From positions 1-64,000 of the forward strand of contig NZ_VCKY01000023.1 in NCBI RefSeq assembly GCF_005889735.1: 64,000 nt of DNA. The letters run 5' to 3'. The position numbers were made by a program, and so were the translations under genes. This DNA is from Nonomuraea turkmeniaca (GTDB lineage Bacteria; Actinomycetota; Actinomycetes; Streptosporangiales; Streptosporangiaceae). Of this stretch, positions 12,026 through 13,063 are shown in pieces (the first letter of the stretch is position 1; every line of letters starts with the position of its first letter). The notes beneath the pieces were generated by a model. That model did not search any database, was not told where the DNA came from, and saw nothing but the letters and a program-made list of their open reading frames with translations.

Positions 12026-12066
12026 ATTTAATTGCGTTGCCCGGGTGACGGGCCGCTCCCTACTGT
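12026..12066 (+). promoter_or_regulatory. WhiB7-like promoter for the erm leader
   Basis: An AT-rich octamer ATTTAATT (12026-12033) lies three bases before a -35-like TTGCCC (12037-12042); after 18 bases comes TACTGT (12061-12066), a fair -10. Promoters activated by WhiB7 in actinobacteria are known for an AT-rich element just upstream of the -35, and WhiB7 controls erm genes in mycobacteria. The predicted transcription start is at or next to the leader ATG at 12074, so the mRNA could be leaderless. The assignment is by pattern only. Confidence 0.55.
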
Positions 12067-12073
12067 GACGGGC

Positions 12074-12148
12074 ATGACATGCATGTTCGCCTGCCCGATG
12101 TTCATTCGCATCCGCCGGAGCTCGCGCGGCCGGGCTCTGGCCCGCTAG
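12074..12148 (+). CDS. 24-residue erm leader peptide
   Basis: A short ORF begins ATG ACA TGC and ends TAG, 90 bases before the erm start. It contains MFIRIRRSSRGR. Basic-X-basic motifs (R-I-R-R) are the known macrolide-dependent ribosome arrest type found in RLR-class erm leader peptides. It has no Shine-Dalgarno but sits at the predicted transcription start. Its end is itself a hairpin (CGGGC 12131-12135 with GCCCG 12140-12144). Function as an arrest peptide is inferred from motif and position. Confidence 0.65.
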   Translation: MTCMFACPMFIRIRRSSRGRALAR

Positions 12149-12231
12149 CGGACGCGATCATCTGAGGCTGCGCGTCCGCACGCGTGCCCAGGGCCCTTCG
12201 AGACCTGTCCATCTCGAGGACCCGAAAGGGC
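12149..12231 (+). promoter_or_regulatory. erm translational attenuator hairpins
   Basis: Directly after the leader stop, CGGACGCG (12149-12156) pairs perfectly with CGCGTCCG (12171-12178). A second structure pairs GCCCTT (12193-12198) with AAGGGC (12226-12231) and, inside it, CGAGA (12199-12203) with TCTCG (12212-12216). The AAGGG strand is the erm ribosome binding site, so it is sequestered in this fold. Ribosome stalling in the leader could shift the pairing and free it. No U-tract follows, so transcription termination is less likely. Confidence 0.6.
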
Positions 12232-12238
12232 GAGCGCT

Positions 12239-13063
12239 GTGGCGCAGAATTTCGCACACGGAAACTATTCACACACCCAGAAGAAGGCCAGGAACGGCGG
12301 TGGCGGTCGCACGCCCAAAGATCGGGCGCGGCGCACGCTCTCGCAGAATTTCCTGGTCGACAGCCATGCCGTCGAGCTGATGGTCAAGGCCGCCGCTCCC
12401 GACGGGCTCGTGCTGGAGCCCGGATCGGGGCAGGGGGTGCTCACCTTTGCGTTGGCCGAGGCCGGCGCGCGGGTCATCGGCTACGAGATCGATCCCCTGC
12501 TGGCCGGGAAGCTGGCCGCGCGGACACGTGACCACCCGGGGATCGACGTGGTCAGGGGCGACTTCACGACCGCGCGGGCGCCGCGCGAGCCGTTCGCGGT
12601 GGTCGGCAACATCCCGTACTCGGTCACGTCGAAGATCGTGGACTGGTGCCTGCGGGCGCCGGGCCTGACCTCGGCGACGATGCTCACTCAGCGGGAGTAC
12701 GCCCGCAAGCGCACCGGCGACTACGGCCGCTGGAGCCTGGTCACGGTGGAGTCGTGGCCGTGGTTCAGCTGGCGGCTCGGTGACACGATCGGCAGGGAGA
12801 GCTTCCGGCCCGTGCCGGCGGTCGACTCGGCGATCCTGCGCGTCCACCGGCGGCCCGCGCCGCTCGTCCATGGCCGCCGCTCCTACCAGGAGCTGGTCGA
12901 GCTGGGGTTCGGCGGCGTCGGTGGATCGGTGCGGGCGTCGTTGAAGACCCGCTACCCGGGGGTGGACGCCGCGTTGGAGGCCGCAGGGGTGGCCCGCGAC
13001 ACCGTCGTGGGCCATGTCCACCCCGACCAGTGGGTCACGTTGTGGCGGCGCCTATGCGGCTGA
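12239..13063 (+). CDS. erm: Erm 23S rRNA (adenine-N6)-methyltransferase
   Basis: The 274-residue product has the Erm/KsgA layout: a basic Gly-rich N-terminal tail, the SQNFL motif, the SAM-binding motif VLEPGSGQGVLT, acidic motif YEIDP, and the catalytic NIPYS motif. Erm enzymes methylate A2058 of 23S rRNA and give macrolide-lincosamide-streptogramin B resistance. N-terminal SQNFL and the short C-terminal domain favour Erm over the KsgA housekeeping enzyme. It starts with GTG 12239 after AAAGGG. Expression is probably drug-inducible through the leader. The 3' end overlaps the convergent glycosyltransferase gene by 12 bases. Confidence 0.92.
   Translation: MAQNFAHGNYSHTQKKARNGGGGRTPKDRARRTLSQNFLVDSHAVELMVKAAAPDGLVLEPGSGQGVLTFALAEAGARVIGYEIDPLLAGKLAARTRDHPGIDVVRGDFTTARAPREPFAVVGNIPYSVTSKIVDWCLRAPGLTSATMLTQREYARKRTGDYGRWSLVTVESWPWFSWRLGDTIGRESFRPVPAVDSAILRVHRRPAPLVHGRRSYQELVELGFGGVGGSVRASLKTRYPGVDAALEAAGVARDTVVGHVHPDQWVTLWRRLCG

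Follow-up and report, generated by a model that had tools for sequence, protein, structure and literature searches.

Evidence for a WhiB7/WblC-type promoter, a predicted leaderless R-x-R leader and competing RNA helices upstream of an erm gene of Nonomuraea turkmeniaca

Introduction

What decides whether the erm gene of Nonomuraea turkmeniaca described here is expressed, and which of the elements crowded upstream of it take part? Macrolide resistance in the clinic is considered to have a reservoir in the erm genes of soil actinomycetes. It is in Firmicutes that control by leader peptides is most familiar; among actinomycetes, the erm genes ermSF (tlrA) and ermSV of Streptomyces are inducible and have leader peptides too.

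The gene lies in the window, i.e., the whole 64,000-nucleotide stretch of DNA that was analyzed. An earlier note, made from the sequence alone, had read its upstream region as three layers of inducible control (a WhiB7-like promoter, a leaderless arrest peptide and hairpins that hide the ribosome site). All three layers were kept upon comparison with other genomes, but the third, antisequester helix, formed with strand 2 (Table 1), had been overlooked. The reading that we favor, at a probability of about 0.73, is that of a doubly gated inducible erm gene, in which a WhiB7-type promoter is combined with a leaderless R-x-R leader and with competing sequester and antisequester helices acting by translational attenuation. 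Papers are cited below by PMC number, for the excerpts available of each.

Materials and Methods

Loci (L numbers) were found by a protein-only Erm search (48 loci) and with an RNA covariance model, R1, from whose matches 63 places were fetched. The alignment of 99 rows omits L059, L084, L090, L091, L094 and L097, judged to be duplicates, as well as L056–L058, L069–L070 and L122 (a weak match; the frame read there did not resemble Erm). L046, L048, L050, L051, L053 and L055, which lack a leader, are absent from alignments A1 and A3. Counts over 96 rows are the 99 minus L120, L121 and L123, which have no recognizable leader, and the folding of 95 core sequences, with ribosome footprints masked, also leaves out L118. 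The sets used for Shine–Dalgarno pairing and for the cost of opening the erm start comprise 92 loci, namely 43 plus 49 of the 63 fetched; the 14 omitted from the 63 were 13 chosen by name and L068, which has no leader call. The promoter geometry was scanned in the 99 loci with the RNA match as anchor and without regard to reading frame. In the duplex permutation test, the stability of the real strand partners was compared with that of partners re-dealt 5000 times.

Results

The erm gene and the elements upstream of it

The erm product scores 324.9 bits against NF000337 (ErmE/ErmH/ErmO/ErmR methyltransferases), above the curated cut-off of 320; a Pfam search finds in it a PF00398 domain, and 6nvm is its top solved chain. 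The genome measures 11.35 Mb, and Nonomuraea supplies the nearest Erm relatives within the named collection. The opposite-strand neighbor upstream of erm encodes an AAA ATPase domain (Pfam), and the ORF downstream of erm gave no Pfam match. When the sequence was re-read, every element that the earlier note had listed was found in its place (Table 1).

Table 1. Features of the erm locus in window coordinates
Feature	Position	Strand	Remarks
AT-rich WhiB7/WblC-type element, TTAATT	12028..12033	+	3 bp 5' of the -35; within octamer ATTTAATT, 12026-12033
-35 hexamer, TTGCCC	12037..12042	+	GCG between AT-rich element and -35
-10 hexamer, TACTGT (TAnnnT)	12061..12066	+	18-bp spacer; 7 bp 5' of leader ATG at 12074
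Leader ORF, predicted leaderless, MTCMFACPMFIRIRRSSRGRALAR, 24 codons + TAG	12074..12148	+	stop 12146-12148; ATG in frame in 90/90 loci
R-I-R, predicted Arg-X-Arg arrest motif	12107..12115	+	both Arg kept in 96/96 rows
Strand 1, 5' arm of predicted 11-bp hairpin with 12131-12141	12114..12124	+	overlaps window-specific 9-nt insertion; predicted folds
Strand 2, last leader codons GGGCUCUGG-CCCGC / GGGCTCTGG-CCCGC, 5' strand of the antisequester	12132..12145	+	compensatory changes with strand 3
Spacer hairpin, 9 bp, arms GCGGACGCG (12148-12156) and CGCGTCCGC (12171-12179)	12148..12179	+	one base shared with leader stop
Strand 3, GCCCAGGGCCCTTCGAGA, pairing with strand 2 (via 12188-12196) or strand 4	12186..12203	+	compensatory changes
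Strand 4, TCTCGAGGACCCGAAAGGGC, holding the erm ribosome-binding site	12212..12231	+	compensatory changes with strand 3
Likely Shine–Dalgarno of erm, AAAGGG	12225..12230	+	assigned by position
erm, 274-aa 23S rRNA (adenine-2058) methyltransferase, GTG start	12239..13063	+	NF000337, PF00398, 6nvm

A promoter of the WhiB7/WblC type

The full geometry (AT-rich element, -35, TAnnnT and an ATG 6–8 nt further on) was present in 90 of the 99 aligned loci, that of the window included, and all 90 carry A/T at positions -8 to -5 from the -35. A looser promoter pattern had no match in mononucleotide shuffles of the same sources, while the strict promoter-plus-ATG pattern hits two sites in the 11.35 Mb genome, one of them the erm locus, and none when read backwards. 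Taken together, these counts argue that the arrangement is not due to chance. At the second strict site (L134:1500-1804, on contig C133), an ORF of five codons, MRLYQ, precedes a small basic one (46 aa counted from its ATG) that gave no Pfam match; a narrow exact pattern did not find the MRLYQ site again in 99 other genomes of the family.

The consensus given for WblC of S. coelicolor consists of GAAAWY, 3 bp, TKGMNN, 16–19 bp and TANNNT, with the transcription start 7–8 bp downstream (PMC7157823); the 90 erm promoters agree with it in their GAAAWY-like AT-rich element, spacer length and TANNNT, as the earlier note's assignment to WhiB7 would lead one to expect. Mycobacterial WhiB7, too, is associated with an AT-rich motif just 5' of the -35 (PMC3905903). 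The N. turkmeniaca genome encodes a WhiB protein with the C-terminal AT-hook RPRGRPRKH (L132), which we name WhiB7 from this hook, and upstream of its gene stands GAAAAT-GTG-TTGCCC-18-TAGGGT, resembling the erm promoter. The erm promoter would hence be WhiB7-dependent, as judged from sequence. In L132 (960-1467), some 470 nt separate the promoter of the whiB7-like gene from its start, and a possible Shine–Dalgarno-led uORF was recognized there by eye.

One could suppose that the promoter alone matters, the leader and the hairpins being by-products, as the excerpts of two papers describe WhiB7/WblC control of erm(37) and SCO6089 without mentioning a leader (PMC4128351, PMC7157823). We consider this improbable in the extreme, given the in-frame conservation of the leader ATG, the invariance of R-x-R and the compensatory changes in the RNA, all detailed below.

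A conserved leader with an R-x-R motif

The leader ATG was in frame with the R-x-R codons in all 90 full-promoter loci, over 10 different ATG-to-RxR lengths, against a chance expectation of one third. This conservation, on which the earlier note had staked its 24-codon ORF, shows that the leader is coding.

In the same 90 loci the ATG follows the -10 by 6–8 nt (7 nt in 80 of them), compared with the published start at 7–8 bp. With the ATG about 7 nt after the -10, where the WblC literature places the start, there would be no room for a Shine–Dalgarno sequence; the transcript would thus begin at the leader ATG, i.e., it would be leaderless, as this geometry, already pointed out in the earlier note, implies.

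Counting the R-x-R as codons 1–3, codons 1 and 3 encode Arg in 96/96 rows, by four and three different Arg codons respectively, in a set gathered with a model (R1) that contains the RxR codons and is biased toward finding them. The middle residue is I, P, L, M, V or F in 95 rows and T in L054. Past the motif, Arg codon 6 is CGG in 79/79 cases and Leu codon 8 is CUG in 81/81; in 12 rows codon 6 encodes Pro instead (e.g., P-A-P-G-R), and the hairpin arms are swapped. Mixed Arg codons on one side and fixed CGG and CUG on the other point to a peptide constraint on R-x-R and an RNA constraint beyond it. The motif proposed at first was RIRR, but its fourth R is not conserved, and RIRR was dropped as the arrest motif in favor of R-x-R.

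R-x-R is a published macrolide arrest motif, and a +X+ stall geometry has been described (PMC8298421); ribosomes would accordingly be expected to stall here in a drug-dependent manner. The two invariant Arg codons might also suit a leader that senses a shortage of arginine or of charged Arg-tRNA rather than macrolides, and WblC is said to respond to amino-acid starvation as well (PMC12421871). However, the regulated gene is a macrolide-resistance methyltransferase, the R-x-R pair alone is invariant (codons 4–6 can be other residues) and the motif is that of published macrolide arrest, so that we regard arginine sensing as highly improbable.

Some leaders (L011, L013, L015–L018, L024, L030 and L105) have no stop just past the switch codons and run on. 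These loci offer a natural test of the role of a terminating ribosome.

Two alternative helices

GCCCAGGGCCC, the strand that hides the erm ribosome site, can alternatively pair with the last leader codons (strand 2, codons 6–10 in the above numbering). The antisequester (2:3) and sequester (3:4) helices have bases in common and are mutually exclusive.

Folding of the window locus alone, a check that the earlier note had called for, gave a z of -1.14, with 23/200 shuffles as good; being only slightly better than shuffles, it leaves the evidence for structure to be comparative, and it was upon comparison that the fold found support. An Rfam search gave no match up to E 1. In the first alignment, covariation by a pair counter was modest (15/500 shuffles reach it), the register slid by 2 outscored the true one (0.061 vs 0.047), and the resting structure had no better a number of pair types than shuffles (470/500). 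Because these sequences were too similar and covariation was weak, divergent loci were collected and the duplex permutation test was used.

For the antisequester, re-dealt partners were as stable as the real ones in 0/5000 deals (62 unique pairs), 0/5000 (25 distinct leader cores) and 7/5000 (10 pairs that differ in both arms); reversal of strand 3 abolished the advantage (4996, 4728 and 2313 of 5000). For the inner stem of the sequester, drawn from all 99 rows, the corresponding figures were 0/5000 (23 pairs) and 4/5000 (8 pairs distinct in both arms), with 2447 and 4263 of 5000 in the reversed controls; the sequences in all these tests are related rather than independent, and kinship inflates such tests. 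In double-mutant cycles among the 10 both-arm-distinct 2:3 pairs, 35 of 45 were below -1 kcal/mol and 4 of 45 above +1.

Individual exchanges can be followed as well. In L034 and L035, leader CTG becomes CGG together with a downstream A to C change, a U-A for G-C exchange that alters the leader residue; L116 sets GAUCC against GGAUC, and L101-type loci have A-U for G-C. The antisequester of L105 is a 20-bp complement, and one or two mismatches occur in some rows (e.g., L104, L109, L111). The compensatory changes detected by the permutation tests show both alternative helices to be real, among them the fold over the erm ribosome site that had been noticed from the outset.

The hairpin right after the leader stop, described at first as an 8-bp one, is indeed present; it has one base pair more, overlaps the stop by one base and is paired in 93.8% of cells in alignment A2. 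It is missing in Acrocarpospora/Microtetraspora-type loci, and in loci without it (L040–L042, L044, L089 and others) the antisequester is lengthened by CUCGC:GCGAG. Since it is absent in several loci, it looks accessory.

In many relatives, the four bases before the ribosome-site GGG (window 12224-12227) are GAAA, GGAA or GAGA (GNRA). By eye, they may perhaps belong to a conserved mini-hairpin of the on state.

Ribosome position and the state of the switch

Across the 95 folded loci, sequester pairing averaged 0.76 when the mask stood for a ribosome on the leader stop and 0.22 when it stood for one stalled at R-x-R, and mean antisequester pairing was 0 at the stop (a zero that follows from the mask) and 0.53 when stalled. 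The sequester at the stop exceeded that in the stalled state by more than 0.2 in 80 of the 95, and was lower in one. Two other measures were less favorable to such switching. To open the erm start required less energy in the stalled state than at the stop, by more than 1 kcal/mol, in 58/92 loci, and more in 12/92. The mean unpaired fraction of the Shine–Dalgarno hardly changed (0.44 free, 0.42 stalled, 0.42 at the stop); this measure was uninformative, in our view because the GGG pairs in every state, including in a CCC-loop-GGG mini-hairpin.

In ribosome-free core RNA the antisequester was favored on average (0.72). This preference suggests that the off state would be set by leader translation or by folding during transcription.

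For the window locus, antisequester pairing rose from 0.32 in free RNA to 0.80 when stalled, and opening its erm start cost about as much stalled as at the stop (17.2 and 17.5). Its sequester pairing was 0.66 free and 0.06 stalled, but only 0.32 with the ribosome at the stop, so that in these models its off state is not clearly tied to a terminating ribosome. Such numbers lean toward the logic of ErmC, in which the leader's own 1:2 hairpin would keep erm off and a stalled ribosome would break it, and they slightly lower our confidence in the main mechanism.

The window locus is peculiar in a 9-nt in-frame insertion (SSR) after RIR, seen in 1/99 aligned rows, which moves RIR 3 codons further from strand 2 and gives rise to the predicted 11-bp 1:2 hairpin; the new 5' arm would be covered by a ribosome stalled at RIR. 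In relatives, the strand-1 helix is instead CGGGC:GCCCG or the exchanged GCCCG:CGGGC, an arm exchange that is in keeping with ErmC logic, as is the RxR-to-S1 spacing, constant across all aligned rows except the window locus. The S1 arms also compensate somewhat, with 1/5000 (21 unique pairs) and 21/5000 (8 both-arm-distinct pairs), although the reversed S1 control partly beats chance too (141/5000). Against a 1:2 resting state, mean S1 pairing was only 0.14 in ribosome-free core RNA. On balance, ErmC logic appears to us a possible explanation that falls some way short of an even chance.

The switch could also operate during transcription. Ribosome-mediated transcription attenuation occurs in tlrA. 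It has been reported for ABC-F genes as well as wblC (PMC12421871, PMC7157823), and some loci (L040 and similar) have UUUU after the hairpin, as if 3:4 were a terminator that polymerase passes when the leader ribosome stalls. But the U-run is absent in the window locus and many relatives, and the ribosome site itself lies within strand 4, which makes a terminator unlikely. We thus keep to translational attenuation by exchange of 2:3 and 3:4 in what follows.

Distribution of the arrangement

Of the 48 loci from the protein-only search, 42, in addition to the window, have an R-x-R leader whose ATG follows a TAnnnT by 6–8 nt, so that the arrangement sought upstream of erm in relatives recurs there, as it does in the aligned loci. 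The six exceptions are L046, L048, L050 and L051 (with differing upstream DNA), L055 from Actinomadura and L053, where the contig is cut. L046, L048, L050 and L051 come from Nonomuraea genomes, and neither a promoter nor a leader of this type stands upstream of these erm copies.

Model R1 has matches in 13/394 genomes of the class, in 15/401 of the family of G361 (taken for Streptomycetaceae) and in 87/297 of the window's own family, where the weakest matches may include false ones, such as L122. In the N. turkmeniaca genome the next matches have E values of only 3.9 and 5.9. An Erm-like frame follows 61 of the 63 fetched places.

A class-wide sample gave 40/384 genomes with Erm at E up to 1e-40, for a total of 41 genes. 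A WhiB7-type promoter with a leaderless start was found within 800 nt upstream of 28 of the 41, each time with an R-x-R in the leader; 90,200 background bases scanned likewise gave no matches. Seventeen of the 28 leaders are outside R1 matches (e.g., ...ARLRSVALDR, ...VRPRSASLDR and ...VRMRRGPGALTGPG), and upon shuffling of their residues the mean probability of an R-x-R was 0.43, with a product of 2e-7 for leaders that are related among themselves. The promoter–leader pattern picked out none of the other 13 genes, of which L144 and L145 carry the RNA element. With 28 of 41 erm genes, 17 of them beyond the R1 model, the combination of a WhiB7-type promoter and a leaderless RxR leader is probably widespread.

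Distant erm loci with other leaderless R-x-R leaders, again downstream of a WhiB7-type promoter, and with different RNA are L150, L151, L153, L154, L156, L158, L160, L162–L169, L171 and L176, and some leaders of this set begin 300–540 nt before the match. The Streptomyces leaders of ermSF/tlrA, ermSV and lrm may overlap with these distant families.

Discussion

The favored mechanism would proceed through three layers. In the first, which we read from the promoter sequence, inhibition of the ribosome would lead WhiB7/WblC, together with the main sigma factor, to switch the promoter on. In the second, the geometry of the start implies an mRNA whose 5' end is the leader AUG, at which ribosomes would initiate without a Shine–Dalgarno; a macrolide-bound ribosome would then halt on the R-x-R motif when its P site holds x and its A site the second R. 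In the third, strands 2 and 4 would compete for strand 3, the helices being indicated by compensatory changes and the switching by folding. Without drug, a ribosome reaching the leader stop would mask strand 2, so that 3:4 would form and keep erm off. When drug is present, a ribosome stalled just 5' of the switch would mask strand 1 and leave most of strand 2 free for 2:3, whose formation would release strand 4, save for a possible 3-bp mini-hairpin, and permit the translation of erm.

More tentatively, at odds just below even, the same plan could extend to ErmE/O-type genes across the class: a WhiB7 promoter, a leaderless R-x-R leader and switches specific to each lineage. Expression would then obey an AND logic, as erm would need ribosomes that are under general stress and that also carry the right drug; translation of the leader would start by 70S leaderless initiation and, for the present family, a ribosome terminating normally on the last codons would itself be the off signal.

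If true, the pairing of a WhiB7 promoter with a leaderless arrest leader would unite two inducible systems that are usually treated apart, and leaderless initiation would serve drug sensing. Many natural compensatory variants are available for testing the switch.

Titles and excerpts from a collection of open-licence papers, outside of which much of the older erm work lies, gave no account of erm genes with a leaderless arrest leader. Nor did that material, including excerpts of PMC4974804, PMC8269224 and PMC10201436, yield a combination of a WhiB7 promoter with leader-peptide control of erm; the excerpts of a multi-omics paper on Planobispora rosea hold nothing on erm. The ingredients are known separately, and what appears to be new is their combination, a variant on erm translational attenuation.

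Attenuation of the ErmC/ErmD type shares with this locus a short leader ORF, a drug-dependent arrest site (predicted in our case) and alternative helices over the ribosome site of the methyltransferase, and the ErmDL-type motif is R-x-R, as in the leader described here (PMC8298421, PMC10219788). Our locus differs from that type in its predicted leaderless start, its WhiB7-type promoter, the use of the last leader codons as a switch strand and the lack of an Rfam match.

The WhiB7/WblC regulon of mycobacteria and S. coelicolor, with erm(37) and SCO6089/lrm, has the same promoter layout (PMC3905903, PMC7157823). The excerpts of PMC4128351 single out erm(37) as exceptional with respect to uORF control, whereas the erm gene considered here has a leader. 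The uORF attenuators of whiB7/wblC also place ribosome-mediated control under this type of promoter; the mycobacterial whiB7 uORF, however, carries a Shine–Dalgarno motif and has a terminator after it (PMC4128351), unlike the erm leader.

Finally, the leaderless mRNA of ermE from Saccharopolyspora erythraea, known to us from a title cited in PMC9031893, also unites leaderless translation with an actinomycete erm. In ermE it is the methylase itself that lacks a conventional ribosome site; here it would be the leader ORF, while erm has a site of its own.
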